A stretch of DNA of 64,000 nucleotides from Microbacterium sp. ET2 (GTDB lineage: Bacteria > Actinomycetota > Actinomycetes > Actinomycetales > Microbacteriaceae): positions 1,674,001 through 1,738,000 of the forward strand of contig NZ_CP128170.1 in assembly GCF_030347395.1 (NCBI RefSeq), written 5' to 3'. The notes under the pieces are model-generated. The model was not told the origin of the DNA and searched no databases. It worked only from the letters and a program-made list of their open reading frames with translations. A program made the translations under genes and the position numbers. Below, piece after piece: positions 7,566 through 15,121 of this stretch. Position 1 is the stretch's first letter; each line of letters begins with the position of its first letter.

Positions 7566-8429
7566 GTGACGGTCGAGCGCAACACCCGACCACTGGAGCC
7601 CACGGTCGAGACCGATTTCTCCGACCGGATGAGCTACGGCGGCTATCTGCAACTTCCCACCCTGCTGTCGGCGCAGCTGCCGCTGAGCGACCCCGAGCAC
7701 CACGACGAGCTGCTGTTCATCGTCCAGCACCAGACCACCGAGCTGTGGCTGAAGCTCGTGCTGCACGAGCTCGCCGAGGCGTGCCGTCTGCTCCGTCAGG
7801 ACGAGCTGGCACCGGCCCTGAAGTGCATCGCGAGGGTGAAGCACATTCAGCGCACCCTGACCGAGCAGTGGTCGGTGCTGGCGACCCTCACCCCCACCGA
7901 GTACGCCCAGTTCCGGAGCGTCCTCGGCAAGGCGAGCGGCTTCCAGTCGGCGCAGTACCGGGCGGTGGAGTTCACGCTCGGCAACAAGAACGCCGCCGTC
8001 CTGCGGGTGTTCGACGCCGACCCGGCCGCGCACGAGCTCGTCCGCACCGCGCTCGAGCAGCCGAGCCTCTACGACGAGTTCCTGCGGCTCCTCGCGCGCA
8101 CCGGCTACGACATCCCGAGCGAGATCCTCGACCGCGACGTCACCCAGGCGTGGACCTTCACGCCCGAGCTGGTGCCGGTCTTCACGGCCATCTACGCCGA
8201 CACCGCGACGCACTGGGCCGCATACGAGACGTGCGAAGAACTCGTCGACCTGGAGGAGAATTTCCAGTTCTGGCGGTTCCGTCACCTGAAGACGGTCGAG
8301 CGCATCATCGGCGGCAAGACCGGAACGGGCGGTTCGAGCGGAGTGCCGTTCCTGCGCCGCGCGCTGGACCTCACGTTCTTCCCCGAGCTCTGGGCGGTCC
8401 GCACCGAGGTGCCCGATGGCGCATCCTGA
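7566..8429 (+). CDS. kynA: Tryptophan 2,3-dioxygenase
   Basis: Haem enzyme (287 aa) that opens the indole ring of L-tryptophan with O2 to give N-formylkynurenine, the first step of the kynurenine pathway. Family marks are MSYGGYLQLP near the start, the substrate-binding FIVQHQTTELWLKL segment, SGFQSAQYR, and the haem-ligand region FQFWRFRHLKTVERIIGGKTGTGGSSG (split here only for reading) near the C-terminus. The GTG at 7566 gives a full-length N-terminus. It heads a kynA-amidohydrolase-kynU cluster, and its 3' end overlaps the next start (8416) by 14 bp. Confidence 0.96.
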   Translation: MTVERNTRPLEPTVETDFSDRMSYGGYLQLPTLLSAQLPLSDPEHHDELLFIVQHQTTELWLKLVLHELAEACRLLRQDELAPALKCIARVKHIQRTLTEQWSVLATLTPTEYAQFRSVLGKASGFQSAQYRAVEFTLGNKNAAVLRVFDADPAAHELVRTALEQPSLYDEFLRLLARTGYDIPSEILDRDVTQAWTFTPELVPVFTAIYADTATHWAAYETCEELVDLEENFQFWRFRHLKTVERIIGGKTGTGGSSGVPFLRRALDLTFFPELWAVRTEVPDGAS

Positions 8430-9449
8430 GTCGCTGCGCGCGCTGCTCGGACCGGATGCCACCCCGGTCCGGCGCGCCCTCACCGACGAGGTGGGAGTTT
8501 CGCTCCCCCGTTCGTCGACCACCACGTGCATCTTCACCTCGTCGACGGCGAGCGCCTGCCGCTCGGCGGCGTCGCCGCGGTGGTCGACCTGGGCGGCGAC
8601 CCCGCGATCCTCGCCGACCGCGCCGCGGGCTCGCTCCCGCACGTGACCTATGCCGGCGCCTTCCTCACGACCCTCGGCGGCTACCCCGCCGGTCGCGAGT
8701 GGGCACCGCCCGCCATCGTCCGTCAGATCACCGACGCCTCTCCGCAGATCGGGCGCCCCGGGGGCGCGGCGACGGCGGTGGACGAGCAACGGCTCGCCGG
8801 AGCATCCGTCATCAAGATCGTCCTGCACCACGAACGCCCTCTTCCCGAGGACGCCCTCGCGACGATCGTCGACACCGCCCACGCTGCCGGGCTTCCGGTC
8901 GTCGCCCACGTCGAAGGAGAGGGGATGACGCGGCGCGCCCTCGACGCCGGGGTCGACGCCCTCGCGCACACACCGTTCAGCGAGCGCCTCGACGCGGCCC
9001 TCATCGCCCGGGCCGCTGCCGCGCAGGTGTGGATCTCGACGCTCGACATCCACCGCGACGACGACCATGGGGCCGGTATCGCCCGCGAGAACCTCCGGGC
9101 GTTCCGCGCGACGGGGGGCCGGGTCGTCTACGGCACAGACCTCGGCAACGGCGACCTCCCGCTCGGGGTGAATCCGCGCGAACTCCGTGCGCTCCTCGCC
9201 GCCGGATGCGACGCCGCCGCCCTCGTCGCGGCCCTGACCGATCCGTGGCCCGGCACCGGATCGCTCCCGGGGGTGCGCACGTTCCTGCGCGGCCGGCCTC
9301 CGCGCCGCTCCGACGGCGCGGTCGACCCCGACGCCCTCGCCGACTGGCTCTCCTCGGCGAGCGTGCTGCCGACCGAGGACCTGCTCCCCACCCTCGACGA
9401 CGAGGGCGACAACGCCGACAGTGAGGACCGCGATGACGGACACCCGTGA
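8416..9449 (+). pseudogene. Imidazolonepropionase-like amidohydrolase in the kyn cluster, apparent frameshift
   Basis: Metal-dependent amidohydrolase of about 344 aa between kynA and kynU. The conserved metal site is visible: FVDHHVHLHL (HxH), Lys in SVIKIVLHH, His in VVAHVEG, His in ALAHTPF, and Asp in VYGTDLGNGD. The ATG at 8416 overlaps the kynA stop but is in another frame from the HxH motif; the frame of the motif has no start before a GTG at 8526, which would cut off the first metal ligand. One missing base near 8485-8498 reconciles them. By position it could supply the N-formylkynurenine hydrolysis step, because no kynB-like cyclase is seen; this is inference. Confidence 0.75.
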
Positions 9450-10737
9450 ACGTGCCGGTACGCAGGACTGGGATGCCGCGGCATCCGCTCTCGACGCCGC
9501 CGACCCGCTCCGCGGCTTCCGCGACCGGTTCGTCGGAGCCGAGACGTCGCTGGTCTACTTCGACGGCAACTCGCTCGGCCGGCCTCCGCGCGCGACCGCC
9601 GAGCGGCTCGCCCGATTCGTCACCGACGAGTGGGGCGGGCGGCTGATCCGCGGGTGGGACGAGTCGTGGATGCGCCTGCCCTACGCCGTCGGCGACGAGA
9701 TCGGCCGGGTGACCCTCGGCGCGGCGGCCGGCCAGACCGTCGTGGGCGACTCGACCACCGTGCTGCTCTACAAGCTCATGCGCGCCGCCGTCGATCATCA
9801 GCGCCGCCGCGACCCCGCCCGGGTCGAGATCGTCATCGACACCGACAACTTCCCGACCGACCGGTTCCTCGTCGAGGGGATCGCCGCCGAGCGGGGCGCG
9901 ACCATCCGCTGGATCGAGGTCGACACCGCCGCCGGCGTCACCCCCGATCAGCTCCGCGCCGTGGTGGGGCCGGCGACCGCTCTCGTCGTCCTGTCGCACG
10001 TGGCCTACCGCTCGGGGCACCTCGCCGACGCCCCCGCGCTCACCGCCGTGGCCCGCGACGCCGGTGCTCTGCTGCTCTGGGATGTCTGCCACTCGGCCGG
10101 ATCCGTTCCCGTCGAGCTCGACGCGTGGGGGGCGGACCTCGCCGTCGGGTGCACGTACAAGTACCTCAACGGCGGCCCGGGGTCGCCGGCTTTCGCCTAC
10201 GTGGCGACGCGGCTGCAGTCGGAGCTCACCCAGCCGATCCAGGGGTGGATGGGCGCCGCCGACGTCTTCTCGATGGGGCCGCGCTACGAGCCCGCCGAAG
10301 GCATGGGCCGATTCCTCTCCGGAACCCCGCCGATCGTCGGGATGCTCGCGATGCAGGACACCCTCGCGATGATCGACGAGGCGGGAATCGGGCCGATCCG
10401 CGAGAAGTCGCGCGCGCTCACCGGCTTCGCCGTCGACCTCGCCGTCGACCTCCTCGAGGGCTACGGCGTCACCCTCGGATCGCCCCGCGATGCGGCCGAT
10501 CGGGGCGGGCACGTGACGCTGCGGCATCCGCAGATGCGCGCCGTCACGGCGCGGCTCTGGGAGAACGACGTCATCCCCGACTACCGCGACCCCGGGGGCC
10601 TGCGCATCGGACTGTCACCGCTGTCGACCAGCTTCGCCGAGACCCTGGCGGGCATGCGTGCCGTCGCCGACGCGCTCGCGGCGCTCGACGGGGATGGGGA
10701 CGGCGGTCGCGGGAAAGCGACCGACACCGCGGCTTAG
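9433..10737 (+). CDS. kynU: Kynureninase
   Basis: PLP-dependent hydrolase (434 aa) that cleaves L-kynurenine to anthranilate and alanine. Seen are FDGNSLGRPP, the WDVCHSAGSVP segment with the cofactor aspartate, and the Schiff-base lysine in CTYKYLNGG (residue 243). The ATG at 9433 is preferred over the in-frame GTG at 9421 because GAGGACC lies just before it. It overlaps the amidohydrolase end by 17 bp. With kynA this gives tryptophan to anthranilate, for catabolism or for feeding anthranilate elsewhere; no anthranilate-degrading genes are in the window. Confidence 0.95.
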   Translation: MTDTRERAGTQDWDAAASALDAADPLRGFRDRFVGAETSLVYFDGNSLGRPPRATAERLARFVTDEWGGRLIRGWDESWMRLPYAVGDEIGRVTLGAAAGQTVVGDSTTVLLYKLMRAAVDHQRRRDPARVEIVIDTDNFPTDRFLVEGIAAERGATIRWIEVDTAAGVTPDQLRAVVGPATALVVLSHVAYRSGHLADAPALTAVARDAGALLLWDVCHSAGSVPVELDAWGADLAVGCTYKYLNGGPGSPAFAYVATRLQSELTQPIQGWMGAADVFSMGPRYEPAEGMGRFLSGTPPIVGMLAMQDTLAMIDEAGIGPIREKSRALTGFAVDLAVDLLEGYGVTLGSPRDAADRGGHVTLRHPQMRAVTARLWENDVIPDYRDPGGLRIGLSPLSTSFAETLAGMRAVADALAALDGDGDGGRGKATDTAA

Positions 10738-10740
10738 GCT
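10735..10740 (+). promoter_or_regulatory. -10-like TAGGCT before the aldehyde dehydrogenase
   Basis: TAGGCT ends 6 nt before the GTG at 10747 and contains part of the kynU stop (TAG). It could give the aldehyde dehydrogenase its own leaderless transcript inside the cluster, though GGGCGG might also serve as a weak ribosome site. Confidence 0.4.
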
Positions 10741-10746
10741 GGGCGG

Positions 10747-12462
10747 GTGCCGGCACCTGACATCGACGTCGCCCTCCACGACCTGCGTGAGGGATCGCGC
10801 GCCTGGGTCGCACTGACCCTGTCGCAGCGGGCTCGCCTCCTCGACCGAGTGCATGCGAGCATCAGCGAAGCCGCTCCCGAGTGGGCTGCGGCGGCGGCGC
10901 GGTCGAAAGGCCTCGATGCCGATCATCCCCTTCGCGGTGAGGAGTGGCTCTCCGGACCGTACGGCGCGATCGAGCTCGTCGACGCCCTGGCGACGACCCT
11001 CCGCCGGCTCGCACGGGGCGGCAATCCGCTCGACGGGGTGCGCGTCACCTCCGCGCCCGGGGGCCGGGTGCGGGTCGACGCCTTCCCGCTCCGCCCGATC
11101 GACTCGCTGCTGCTGTCGGGCTTCACCGGCGAGGTGTGGCTGAAGCCGGGCGTCACCGAGGCCGAGGCTCGGGCGGGGGCGGGCCTCGCGCAGCGCTCCC
11201 CCGGCGCCCCCGGCGGGGTGGGGCTCGTGCTCGGCGCCGGCAACGTCACCTCGATCCCGGTCGCCGACGTGCTGTACGAACTGTTCGCCCACAACCGCGT
11301 GGCGATGCTGAAGCTCAATCCGACGCAGGAGACGCTGCTGCCGGTGTTCACCCGCGCGCTCGCCCCGCTCATCGAGCCGGGGTTCCTGCGCGTGATCGCC
11401 GGCGGGCCCGAGGTGGGTGCCGCTCTCACCTCGCACCCCGGGATCGACCACGTGCACATCACCGGGTCTGCGGCGACGTTCGAGCGGATCGTGTGGGGCG
11501 ACGGGCCGCAGGCCCGCCGCCGCCGGCGCGAGAACCGTCCCGCGCTGAAGAAGCCGATCACCGCCGAACTCGGCGGGGTCTCGCCGATCATCGTCGTCCC
11601 CGGTGAATGGTCGGCCGCCGACATCCGCTATCAGGCCGAGCACATCGCGACGATGCGCCTGCAGAACGCCGGGCACAACTGCATCGCGGGGCAGGTCGTG
11701 CTGATCAGTCGCGACTGGCCGCAGCGCGGTCGGTTCCTGGCGGCGCTCCGGCGCGCGTACGACGAGGCGACCGCGCGGACGCCCTGGTACCCCGGCAGCG
11801 CGGAGCGAATGGATGCCGCTGCGGCGGCGTACCCCGACGCCGCCTGGTGCGCCGACGGCACGCGGCTGCTCGTCGAGGTCGATGCCGGGGCTGCGCCCGG
11901 GCTGCCCGGACCCATCGAGGAGACCGAGTACTTCGCGCCGGTCCTCGGCGTGATCGCGCTCCCGGGTCTCGGCCAGGAGTTCCTCGACGCCGCGGTCGCG
12001 CACGCGAACGAGCGGCTCAGCGGAACGCTCGGCGCCAACATCCTCATCCACCCCGCGACCGAGGCGGCGCTCGGTGCCGGGTTCGAGCGCGCGGTGGCCG
12101 ACCTGCGGTACGGCGCGATCGCGATCAACGCGTGGACGGCCTTCGTCTTCCTCACCCCGACCCTGACGTGGAGCGCGTTCCCCGGGAGCACCCTGCAGGA
12201 CGTCGGCAGCGGCGTCGGCGTCGTGCACAACGCGCTGCTCCTCGACGACGTCGAGCGTTCGATCGCCCGCGGTCCGTTCCGGCCCTTCCCTCGGTCGCTC
12301 ACCGCGCTGGTGCGGGGTGGCCGATTCTCGGTGCTGCCGAAGCCGCCGTGGTTCGTGTCGTCGCGGACGGGCGCGACGGTGAGCGAGGGATTCACACGGT
12401 TCCGGATGCACCGTCGGTGGCCGGCGCTCGCGGTGACGCTCCTGCGGGCGTTTCGGGCGTAG
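10747..12462 (+). CDS. Aldehyde dehydrogenase family protein
   Basis: NAD(P)-dependent dehydrogenase of the ALDH superfamily, 571 aa, longer than the usual 480-500. Catalytic Cys is in NAGHNCIAGQ, the activating Glu in ITAELGGVSP, and the cofactor-loop motif in HITGSAATFE. It lacks the standard LP[FW] opening near the cofactor site and has SGFTGEVWLKPG instead. It starts 9 bp after kynU and could be co-transcribed, but nothing in the sequence ties its substrate to kynurenine. Its stop lies only 3 bp from the end of the convergent MFS gene. Confidence 0.85.
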   Translation: MPAPDIDVALHDLREGSRAWVALTLSQRARLLDRVHASISEAAPEWAAAAARSKGLDADHPLRGEEWLSGPYGAIELVDALATTLRRLARGGNPLDGVRVTSAPGGRVRVDAFPLRPIDSLLLSGFTGEVWLKPGVTEAEARAGAGLAQRSPGAPGGVGLVLGAGNVTSIPVADVLYELFAHNRVAMLKLNPTQETLLPVFTRALAPLIEPGFLRVIAGGPEVGAALTSHPGIDHVHITGSAATFERIVWGDGPQARRRRRENRPALKKPITAELGGVSPIIVVPGEWSAADIRYQAEHIATMRLQNAGHNCIAGQVVLISRDWPQRGRFLAALRRAYDEATARTPWYPGSAERMDAAAAAYPDAAWCADGTRLLVEVDAGAAPGLPGPIEETEYFAPVLGVIALPGLGQEFLDAAVAHANERLSGTLGANILIHPATEAALGAGFERAVADLRYGAIAINAWTAFVFLTPTLTWSAFPGSTLQDVGSGVGVVHNALLLDDVERSIARGPFRPFPRSLTALVRGGRFSVLPKPPWFVSSRTGATVSEGFTRFRMHRRWPALAVTLLRAFRA

Positions 12463-12465
12463 GCG

Positions 12466-13854
12466 TCATGCAGGGGCGGGCCGAGTCGCCATTCGGAAGG
12501 TCGACGCCAGGACGACGACGAACAGACCCGCCAGGCCGACGATCGTCCACGCCAGCACTTCCCAGTCGGCGCTGGAGGTGCCACCCGAGAAGCACAGACC
12601 GACCACGACGCTGGCACCGATGCAGCCGGCACTTCGCGCCGTTTGGAACAAACCCGCTGCCTCCCCCACCTCGTCCGCGGGGGCAGCGATGTACAGCGAC
12701 TGCGTGACCGCCACCAACACGAAGACGTACGGCACGCCGATCCCGGCTGCGGCGAGGAGCACCAGCCACACCGGCGCGCTCGCCCCGAGCAGGGGCATCA
12801 GCAGCGAACCGGCAGCGAGCCCGATCACTCCGACGAGCATGGCCTGTCCGAGCCCTCGCGCGTGGACGAGTTTCTCGGCGGGACGAGCAAGGAGCACGTT
12901 GAATGCGGCAAGCGGGAGGAGAAGGGCACCGACGATGGCGGTGCTGTATCCGACGTGGTCTTCCAGGTACTGGGGCAGCCCGAACAGCGCGCTGTAGAGC
13001 ACGAGGCTTCCGAGGATGATCCGGGAGTAGACCCGCAGGAGCGGGGCGTTCGCGGCCAGGAAGCGGATGTCGATGAAGGGCGTTCGGCATCGTAGCTCCC
13101 GCCACGTGAAGAGGCAGGCCGCCGCCACCGCGATCACGAGGAGCACCCACGGAGCACCGTCCGGCAGATCCAGCAGGAACATCAGCAGGGCGACAACCGT
13201 CACGGTGAAGGCGAGGATGCCGGGAAGGTCTGACTCACGCAGGATCTCGATCAGGGGGCGGGACTGTCGCGGCTCATCGGCGGGAGTCACCGCGCGTGTC
13301 GCGACGATCGCCGCGACGGCGATCGGAATGTTGACCCAGAACACCGCCTGCCAGCCCACGAGCGACAGCAGCACGCCGCCGACGACGGGGCCCACGGCCG
13401 CGGTGCTCGTGTCGATGAGCTGGATGCGGCCGATCATCGTCGGAGCATCGCCGCCGCGGTCGTGCGCGATCGCCCGCAGCATCGAGGCTGCTGCGGGAAA
13501 GGCCGCGGCTGTCCCGATGGCAAGGATCACTCTCGAAAGGCAGACCCACCAGATGTCCGGGGAGAACGGTCCGACGGTGCCGGCGACGATGATCACCGCC
13601 ATCCCCAGCGTGAAGATCCGTCGCGGGCCGAATCTGTCGGCAAGGCGGCCCATCAAGGGCTGCAGCACCGCCGACGCGAGGTAGAAGACCGAAATCACCC
13701 ACGTGACGGTCGCCACGTCGACGGCGAACACACCGCGGAGGGTACTGAGGGCCACCGCGATCATCCCGGAGTTGAGCGCTGAGAGGGCCGTGCCCAGACA
13801 GAGCGCGGCGATGACCTGTCCGGCCCGGGCATCTTTGTGGCGCGCGGTACCCAT
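12466..13854 (-). CDS. MFS drug-exporter-like transporter (DHA2 type)
   Basis: Multi-spanning efflux transporter (462 aa), probably 14 helices. The first helices carry ALCLGTALSALNSGMIAVAL, followed by the loop motif A GRLADRFGPRRIF and the motif-C-like segment AVGPVVGGVLLSLVGW typical of proton/drug antiporters. The ATG at 13854 is chosen because it directly precedes the first helix; the frame is open upstream but Gly/Pro/Arg-rich without homology. No strong ribosome site is visible. Substrate is unknown. The 3' end meets the aldehyde dehydrogenase end. It lies downstream of the heliorhodopsin-like gene on the same strand, separated by 251 bp. Confidence 0.87.
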   Translation of the reverse strand: MGTARHKDARAGQVIAALCLGTALSALNSGMIAVALSTLRGVFAVDVATVTWVISVFYLASAVLQPLMGRLADRFGPRRIFTLGMAVIIVAGTVGPFSPDIWWVCLSRVILAIGTAAAFPAAASMLRAIAHDRGGDAPTMIGRIQLIDTSTAAVGPVVGGVLLSLVGWQAVFWVNIPIAVAAIVATRAVTPADEPRQSRPLIEILRESDLPGILAFTVTVVALLMFLLDLPDGAPWVLLVIAVAAACLFTWRELRCRTPFIDIRFLAANAPLLRVYSRIILGSLVLYSALFGLPQYLEDHVGYSTAIVGALLLPLAAFNVLLARPAEKLVHARGLGQAMLVGVIGLAAGSLLMPLLGASAPVWLVLLAAAGIGVPYVFVLVAVTQSLYIAAPADEVGEAAGLFQTARSAGCIGASVVVGLCFSGGTSSADWEVLAWTIVGLAGLFVVVLASTFRMATRPAPA

Positions 13855-14105
13855 CAGCGGGCGCCTGAGCCGAGCACCACACGCACCACCGCTTCCCGCG
13901 CCGCCCACAACGCCGCCCCCGTCTGCTCCATGCCGGCCATTCTGCCGGGTGGGCCGCGCACACGCGTCCATACACTCGCCCGGGTCCGAACTTCACCGGT
14001 GCGCGGATGGTCATCGCGTTTCGTGCGGCATGTGGCGCTCGTGTGGCGCCCCCCAGCCGGCTCGAATCCATTCGGGCGAGCGTTCGGGACCTCGGCGGGA
14101 GTGGT
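13855..14105. other. Intergenic gap with no recognised feature
   Basis: This 251-bp stretch separates two minus-strand genes and should hold the MFS promoter. I see no repeat, RNA gene or credible small gene. CTCGAATCC at 14061-14069 resembles a tRNA T-loop but lacks a matching stem. Confidence 0.5.
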
Positions 14106-14885
14106 TCAGCCGCCGGCGGCGAGGACCACTCCCCACGCGAGCGCGGTCGTCGCCAGGAGGGGGAGGATGCCGGGAGCGTCGGCGTCCGCCGGCCGGAACC
14201 AGCCGCGGAACCACACCGCGATCGACAGCGCGAGAACGATGAGGGTGACGACGCGCGTCACGAGTCCGACCGGGTCGCCGAGGATGCCCCCGCCGATCTG
14301 TGCGAATGCGATCGATCCCCAGGGCACGATGCCGATGACCGCCGCCGGCGCGGCCGGGCGCCGGAGACCCCGGATGCCGCGGGTCGCGGATGGGGTGGCG
14401 GCAGCGTCGACGGGGGCGGACGTACCGGTCCGGAGCACGGGGCCGTCGCTGCGACGCGTGGCCGAGATCTCGTGGGGCGTGGCACCGTCGTCCAGGCGCG
14501 GAGCGACGAGGGTGCCGTCGAGCGCGAGCAGCATCACCGCGCCCGCGGCAAGGGCGTAGAGCGCGACGAGGGTCGTCAGCTCGGTGATGCCGTTCAGCTG
14601 CGCGATGAGGAAGACCGCGACACCAGACAGCTGCGACCACCCGATCCAGGTGACCAGGCGCGCGCGTGTGGCGAGCGGTTCGATGCGCGCGACGGCGGCG
14701 TCGACGAGCCCGCCGAAGGCGAGCAGCACCACCGCGGCCCATCCGGCGTGGACCGTCGCGATCACGACATCCGCTCCTCCCAGGCGGGCGGTGACCTCAC
14801 CGCTGGCCGGCATGCCGACCAGCGTGATGACGACGCCGACGATGACCGCCTGCACCAGGTACAGCCCTGCGCGAACGAGCCTCAT
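14106..14885 (-). CDS. Heliorhodopsin-like seven-helix protein lacking the retinal lysine
   Basis: Membrane protein of 259 aa with seven hydrophobic segments at about 5-25, 42-65, 78-97, 100-123, 179-199, 206-226 and 239-257. Several stretches follow the heliorhodopsin pattern: LYLVQAV in helix 1, TWIGWSQLSGVAVFLIAQL in helix 3 (family pattern RWxEYSxSxSxMxxxIAxL), GITELTTLVALYA leading into helix 4, GIVPWGSI in helix 5, and LLATTALAW in helix 7 (family pattern LVAKSALAW). On this alignment the Schiff-base lysine is Thr246 and the counterion glutamate is Gly82, so retinal could not bind in the usual way. A 55-residue Thr/Ala/Arg-rich loop separates helices 4 and 5. Family membership is my reading from memory of the motifs. 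Function unknown. Confidence 0.7.
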   Translation of the reverse strand: MRLVRAGLYLVQAVIVGVVITLVGMPASGEVTARLGGADVVIATVHAGWAAVVLLAFGGLVDAAVARIEPLATRARLVTWIGWSQLSGVAVFLIAQLNGITELTTLVALYALAAGAVMLLALDGTLVAPRLDDGATPHEISATRRSDGPVLRTGTSAPVDAAATPSATRGIRGLRRPAAPAAVIGIVPWGSIAFAQIGGGILGDPVGLVTRVVTLIVLALSIAVWFRGWFRPADADAPGILPLLATTALAWGVVLAAGG

Positions 14886-14897: not shown

Positions 14898-14990
14898 CCC
14901 GGCCCCGGGCACCGCGATGCCGGGGTTGCGCGGGCGGGCGGGTGCTCCGCCTCGTCGGTCGAAGCGCCGCTCCGGGGCATCCGGCTACCG

Positions 14991-15121
14991 ACGAAGGTGA
15001 CGCAGATGGCGACCTTGCGCCCGTCAAGCCCACCATCTGCGCCACTTTCGCGGCGGAGCTCGAGACGAAGGTGGCGCACATTGCGACCTTCACCCGGCCA
15101 AGGTCACCATCTGCGCCACTT
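14991..15121. repeat. Two-copy REP-like hairpin element
   Basis: Two direct copies lie 74 bp apart (14991-15047 and 15065-15121). Each starts with GACGAAGGTGRCGCA and ends with CACCATCTGCGCCACTT. The two ends of a copy are imperfect reverse complements (AAGGTGACGCAGATGG against CCATCTGCGCCACTT), so each unit can fold into a long hairpin, as in REP/BIME elements. They sit in the 418-bp gap 14886-15303, which otherwise holds GC-rich hairpins downstream of the sugar operon and no gene. Confidence 0.8.

Follow-up and report, generated by a model that had tools for sequence, protein, structure and literature searches.

The 64,000-nucleotide stretch of the Microbacterium sp. ET2 genome analysed here (the window) carries a gene whose product resembles heliorhodopsins (HeRs) but has neither the retinal lysine nor the counterion, which raises the question of whether it is still a heliorhodopsin and what it may do without its pigment. 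The gene, its key sites and the features discussed below are collected in Table 1. Besides the ATG given there, the reading frame offers a GTG at 14912 as another possible start. The absence of both light-chemistry residues, claimed in an earlier sequence-only reading, was confirmed: Thr246 occupies the lysine site and Gly82 the counterion site, and both are kept in the four close Microbacterium orthologues that were aligned. A retinal lysine displaced to another position was ruled out, since the number of lysines in the whole 259-aa protein is zero.

Table 1. Positions of the lysine-less heliorhodopsin gene, its sites and its neighbours in the window, with neighbour genes of other loci.
Feature	Position	Strand	Basis or remark
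Lysine-less heliorhodopsin gene	14106..14885	-	259 aa, ATG at 14885
Gly82 codon (counterion site)	14640..14642	-	Glu in 84/84 canonical rows
Thr246 codon (retinal-lysine site)	14148..14150	-	Lys in 30/30 HeR loci elsewhere in the phylum
A-B loop beta-hairpin, residues 28-46	14748..14804	-	DSSP on predicted model
Tyr110 codon	14556..14558	-	56/57 lysine-less rows, 0/84 canonical
Helix-5 signature W189-G190-x-x-A193-x-x-Q196	14298..14321	-	Column counts
Thr214 codon	14244..14246	-	57/57 lysine-less rows, 0/84 canonical
Helix 4-5 loop, residues 127-177	14355..14507	-	Low-confidence part of model
Tryptophan 2,3-dioxygenase, amidohydrolase-like ORF (weak Pfam match), kynureninase, aldehyde dehydrogenase	7566-12462	+	
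MFS transporter	12466-13971	-	Between HeR gene and aldehyde dehydrogenase
DUF1684 directly downstream of HeR			L072, L075, L141, L152, L165 and others
DPRP upstream of HeR			L076, L083, L085, L093, L098, L099, L100

The NF038020 profile matched the window protein with E=1.2e-5, which is below the curated cut-off of this profile. PF18761 gave a non-significant E=0.63, and the best phmmer match in the PDB reached only E=0.04. The type-1 rhodopsin profile PF01036 was not matched in a Pfam scan to E=10, which returned PF18761 only. The relatives P0011 and P0012 exceeded the PF18761 cut-off. Profile similarity to heliorhodopsins is thus significant for the protein itself with NF038020, and with PF18761 for its relatives. 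A chain of intermediate sequences above the Pfam cut-off joins the window protein to HeRs, and the protein groups with HeRs in a continuous tree, in which Actinomycetota HeRs were the widest sampling. The predicted model, made with the lysine-less alignment A2 as its only input, has the HeR fold including the HeR-type A-B beta-hairpin, a heliorhodopsin hallmark (PMC9385722), and HeR ranked top in the fold search with this model. The claim of a heliorhodopsin scaffold is borne out by the intermediates, the hairpin and the fold search, and the protein was placed in the heliorhodopsin superfamily, although it does not satisfy the definition of a retinal-binding member. That it is instead an unrelated seven-helix protein with motifs by chance, as its own PF18761 and PDB values would favour, is refuted by the Pfam-passing intermediates, the hairpin and the fold and keeps hardly any probability. 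With regard to the inverted topology of HeRs (N-terminus inside), lysine plus arginine residues number 2 in the N-terminus and, by loop, 3 in BC, 8 in DE and 2 in FG; on the opposite side the counts are 1 in AB and 0 in CD, EF and the C-terminus. The helix 4-5 loop, which differs in length among Microbacterium copies, would be cytoplasmic by the inferred topology.

Homologues were collected by sequence search (53) and by profile (83), 97 together, and none of the 97 has lysine at the site, all of them having been retrieved with lysine-less queries. Among the listed homologues with a source name, most are "hypothetical protein", P0013 and P0015 being named Heliorhodopsin by one source, and most of the homologues among the matches listed carry a precomputed Pfam HeR tag. 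When 398 Microbacteriaceae genomes were searched, 84 gave a match. By locus motif, 32 of these have the lysine-less gene and 52 have canonical HeR only; canonical HeR is also present in 10 of the 32. The named carriers are Microbacterium, Cryobacterium, Agromyces, Salinibacterium, Labedella, Microcella, Subtercola, Curtobacterium, Frigoribacterium and Frondihabitans. With the canonical profile PF18761, 22 HeR genomes were found among 297 drawn from the order, all with Glu and Lys, and 66 among 236 drawn from the phylum, where the 30 loci read all had Glu and Lys. Because this profile misses the window genome's own gene, divergent lysine-less genes outside the family were possibly missed in both draws. 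The loci found in a wider scan with the lysine-less alignment bear the titles Microbacteriaceae, unclassified Actinomycetota or Micrococcales, and in two cases Acidobacteria. The latter two (L081 and L088, contigs of metagenome-assembled genomes) carry lysine-less HeR domains identical to those of the family-f1 genomes G214 and G355, and their titles are probably wrong.

In the tree of 142 rows, a single branch (SH-aLRT 93) separates all 57 rows without lysine from the others. Since the residue at site 246 served to divide the rows into lysine-less and canonical, "no lysine" there is no result in itself; the results are this single branch, the other columns and the empty helix-7 window. Seven of the 149 rows, all fragments shorter than 180 aa and including L065, L097, L099 and L103, were excluded from the trees and column counts. 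The branch of lysine-less HeRs is so far known from Microbacteriaceae. Within the genus Microbacterium, 5 of 149 genomes gave a match, 3 of them clear, and the weak matches in G141 and G014 gave no HeR match when their loci were re-examined. Two loci titled Microbacterium (L070 and L071) hold a distant copy with E and P at the counterion and lysine sites. A divergent lysine-bearing HeR type was also seen on a long separate branch in two small-genome Microbacteriaceae (L147 and L148, from G229 and G243), and G243 carries the family's usual HeR besides it.

The sequence-only reading held that both residues had changed together, which is not supported. Nor is the pair of changes unique to the window protein. 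The counterion site, which is Glu in every canonical row, is occupied in the 57 lysine-less rows by Glu (33), Asp (10), Ala (7), Gly (6) and Ser (1). The lysine site of the same rows holds Thr (18), Ala (8), Gly (6), Pro (5), Val (4), Ser (4), Phe (4), Leu (3), Met (2), Ile (1), Arg (1) and a gap (1). Because Glu or Asp still stands at the counterion site in so many of these rows, loss of the lysine preceded that of the acid. Both residues are likewise missing from the proteins of Labedella (G/V) and of the Microcella alkaliphila type (A/A). Judged from these counts, the double loss is a late state; the groups that show it are Microbacterium with Labedella, the Microcella alkaliphila type, and the genus to which L033, L035 and L036 belong. 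Labedella and Microbacterium are joined at 99/93 in one tree, which is possibly a long-branch artefact.

The lysine-less rows share a set of other residues. Gly190, Ala193, Thr214 and Leu218 are present in 57 of 57 and Tyr110 in 56, and site 196 is Gln in 53 and Glu in 4. Among the 84 canonical rows, Tyr110, Gly190, Gln196, Thr214 and Leu218 do not occur, Ala193 occurs in 15 and Asn98 in 35. The protein L102 of Cryobacterium algoritolerans retains Glu82, Phe221, Phe224, Ser242 and Lys246 and already has Asn98, Tyr110, Gly190, Ala193, Thr214 and Leu218. A search with L102 gave 298 matches, and from the best 120 of them those with at least 52% identity, P0086 among them, were read as 24 intermediates. 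All 24 have the same six residues together with Val196, and their lysine site holds Lys in 18, Arg in 2, Gln in 1 and Pro in 3. Among the rows read, Gln or Glu at site 196 is confined to the main lysine-less group, L027 (Arg) included. These lysine-bearing relatives suggest that the protein was remodelled first and became light-blind later. In a tree of 85 rows, containing 18 of the 24 intermediates and L102 with 9 lysine-less loci left out, the lysine label requires 3 changes, which are forced by well-supported forks (bootstrap range 3). Rhodopsins in general carry the retinal lysine, and the root was therefore placed among lysine-bearing HeRs. Given this root, which is inferred in a tree without an outgroup, the ancestral state would have had the lysine, and at least 3 losses followed.

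The retinal pocket is altered beyond the lysine. The aromatic residues at sites 221 and 224 are mostly lost in the lysine-less rows, and the aromatic residue at site 83 is also replaced. By our own mapping, sites 221 and 224 would correspond to Phe204 and Phe207 of AbHeR, which pack retinal (PMC9529153). With these aromatic sites mostly lost, the protein is unlikely to bind retinal in the ordinary way, quite apart from the missing lysine. Tyr110, Gln196 and Thr214 are 6-7 residues from the presumed extracellular helix ends in the model; by helix periodicity, Gln196 and Trp189 are on a common helix face, as are Thr214 and site 221. Helix numbering and depth, rather than coordinates, point to these three residues as a putative polar site. 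The extracellular half of TaHeR is described as highly hydrophobic (PMC9385722).

The reading we favour, with moderate confidence, is that of a heliorhodopsin descendant without retinal binding, which is light-blind and is kept as a working membrane protein with a non-light role. It is based on the HeR ancestry, the lysine-free branch, the loss of the aromatic pocket, the new invariant set and the purifying selection described below, and the sister group, mostly lysine-bearing, already has part of the new residue set. The retinal-free protein proposed in the sequence-only reading is supported as the most likely one. Such a protein would keep the inverted seven-helix form of HeRs and probably the dimer too. 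On helices 4, 5 and 6, Tyr110, Gln196 and Thr214 are at about equal depth in the extracellular half, and would form a polar site at a depth which is hydrophobic in canonical HeRs. A non-light input at this site, such as a small ligand, a lipid, an ion or a stress state, or else simply constitutive binding, might set the action of the cytoplasmic face on a partner protein, by analogy with photoactivated HeRs, which are reported to act on glutamine synthetase, photolyase and an ABC transporter. More tentatively, a photoreceptor may have turned into a chemoreceptor in steps: in Microbacteriaceae, a second, polar binding site in the extracellular half was gained while retinal was held, light became dispensable, and the lysine was lost at least three times, leaving a family of retinal-free seven-helix receptors. 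If true, these bacterial receptors would be comparable in logic to non-opsin GPCRs.

HeR, type-1 rhodopsin (PF01036) and retinal-making Blh (PF15461) were each searched over the 398 Microbacteriaceae genomes, and the labels agree among the listed ones. Type-1 rhodopsin was found in 26 of 32 lysine-less HeR genomes versus 86 of 366 others (Fisher p 9e-11), and Blh in 20 of 32 versus 20 of 366 (Fisher p 7e-15); genomes of one genus are not independent in these counts, from which G197 and G229 (PF01036 below cut-off), and likewise the weak genus g50, were dropped. By genus, the values are 11/13 versus 16/72 for type-1 rhodopsin and 10/13 versus 5/72 for Blh. For canonical HeR genomes, type-1 rhodopsin was present in 51/62 versus 61/336 and Blh in 13/62 versus 27/336, the latter a weaker tie. 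Blh is scarcer where the lysine-less HeR has no Glu (5/14 versus 15/20 with Glu, p 0.035, Asp being counted as no Glu). The co-occurrence counts against a purely light-independent origin, and suggests a tie of the whole branch to light or retinal, which a sensor entirely free of retinal leaves unexplained. It is also the main support for a different role, that of a light-blind partner subunit which pairs with or tunes a co-resident type-1 pump, sensory rhodopsin or canonical HeR, the last being co-resident in 10 of the 32; a partner-subunit role has been proposed for Rh-noK and FArhodopsins (PMC10308929). However, genome searches found no type-1 rhodopsin, Blh or canonical HeR in the window genome, all three are also absent in five more of the 32 (G255, G426, G460, which is 81% complete, G300 and G152), and the lysine-less HeR and the other rhodopsin gene are at least 40 kb apart where compared on one contig. 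The same counts could also arise if the genomes have a sunlit lifestyle in common. We regard a partner subunit as possible but doubtful. Among the congeners, G051 has neither type-1 rhodopsin nor Blh, and G086 has type-1 rhodopsin without Blh. Since the branch goes with type-1 rhodopsin and Blh, yet the tested Microbacterium genomes are without Blh, it probably originated in cells that used retinal and persisted in Microbacterium after retinal was gone.

A non-covalent binder or carrier of retinal or a carotenoid, with the pocket kept in another form and the lysine dispensable, is unlikely. The branch sits mostly in Blh-bearing genomes, Gly190 and Ala193 are small residues beside the invariant Trp189 on helix 5, and HeRs are open to the membrane above the retinal ring (PMC9385722), but the canonical retinal-packing aromatics are replaced at sites 83, 221 and 224, and the window genome and the two congeners are without Blh. 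Of the 34 known lysine-less genomes, 18 were tested for phytoene synthase (PF00494) and all 18 have it, the window genome included; this presence gives no specific support, the comparison being with control genomes only (7 of 14).

Six pairs of four Microbacterium genes gave dN/dS values of 0.07-0.22 by YN00 and 0.16-0.41 by NG86. Among 16 columns examined, 7 are invariant in the 57 lysine-less rows, and no internal stops occur in the matches listed from the 398-genome search. Comparison of the coding sequences shows that the lysine-less HeR is under purifying selection and indicates that its function is kept; a pseudogene reading of the window gene is opposed by dN/dS. Two broken copies were seen elsewhere, one with an in-frame stop (L065, Salinibacterium xinjiangense) and one with a frame change (L103, Cryobacterium breve ERMR7:08). 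These copies, the long branches of lysine-less rows and the few matches within the genus would fit a relaxed remnant that drifts toward loss without retinal, but the YN00 values, the invariant columns and the lack of internal stops among the matches listed make such a remnant quite improbable.

The window protein differs from the known systems in several respects. Compared with heliorhodopsins (type-3; 48C12, TaHeR; PF18761/NF038020), the window protein has lost the retinal lysine, the counterion and the F/F aromatic pair on helix 6, and adds Tyr110, Gly190, Ala193, Gln196, Thr214 and Leu218. Lysine-less opsins are known as haloarchaeal and fungal ORPs (PMC4915679) and as Rh-noK and freshwater FArhodopsins (PMC10308929). 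In these the retinal lysine was likewise lost on a rhodopsin scaffold, several with a working rhodopsin in the genome, but they are type-1, whereas the window protein is of heliorhodopsin type and comes from a genome without a PF01036 match. Alt-rhodopsins likewise have atypical key-site residues and some are near HeRs, but they are defined by a helix-3 arginine change, and HeRs are described with the lysine kept in the available text of that paper (PMC9601134). CryoRhodopsins are likewise described only from Microbacteriaceae and proposed as sensors, but they are retinal-binding type-1 proteins with a cytoplasmic arginine and a neighbouring transducer gene (PMC12227055). A lysine-less HeR was not found in the available text of the open-licence PubMed Central literature on HeRs (including PMC8612252, PMC9601134, PMC11109279, PMC12422013 and PMC12227055; subscription papers were outside the search). 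Heliorhodopsins thus join the rhodopsin groups with known lysine loss, a loss linked here to retinal-making genomes. HeR function is still largely open, and a family-wide retinal-free branch under selection would show that the job of the scaffold is separable from light; the mostly lysine-bearing sister group offers matched pairs for testing this role.

Conservation of neighbour genes does not extend beyond the genus, so none of them stands out as a universal partner. DUF1684 lies immediately downstream, without an intervening gene, in 13 of 60 lysine-less loci (Microcella-type) versus 3 of 56 canonical loci, the three being from one other genus with gaps of 6-10 bp; DUF1684 is possibly an HeR partner whatever the pigment. 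A photolyase-related DPRP gene lies upstream in 7 of 8 Curtobacterium loci with long flanks, one of the seven being only a 133-aa piece and one representative having been checked with Pfam. Both adjacencies were called by our own rough gene caller and are only suggestive as partner evidence. HeR-photolyase and HeR-ABC links have been published for canonical HeRs (PMC9769723, PMC11109279). In L102, a DPRP gene is nearby on the opposite strand.

In Microbacterium, the HeR gene is preceded by a beta-galactosidase, two ABC permeases (Pfam) and an ORF without Pfam match, which by its sequence looks like a lipoprotein solute-binding protein. A single operon with these sugar-transport genes was rejected: the order is kept, but the gap to the HeR gene varies from about 240 bp (L159) to about 420 bp in the window, about 610 bp (L059) and about 850 bp (L175). 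On the other side, the tryptophan-degradation ORFs and the aldehyde dehydrogenase are found in the same order beside the HeR gene in other Microbacterium loci. The MFS gene is not a conserved partner, being absent in L059, L175 and L159, where the HeR gene faces the convergent aldehyde dehydrogenase ORF directly. No promoter or terminator consensus and no Rfam match were found in the gap of about 420 bp upstream of the window gene. The same gap contains a 58-nt direct repeat in two copies (14990-15121), 83% alike and 74 bp apart, with imperfect inverted arms, and elsewhere the genome has one further, similar pair of its 15-base core, with the same 74-bp spacing, near 2975480.
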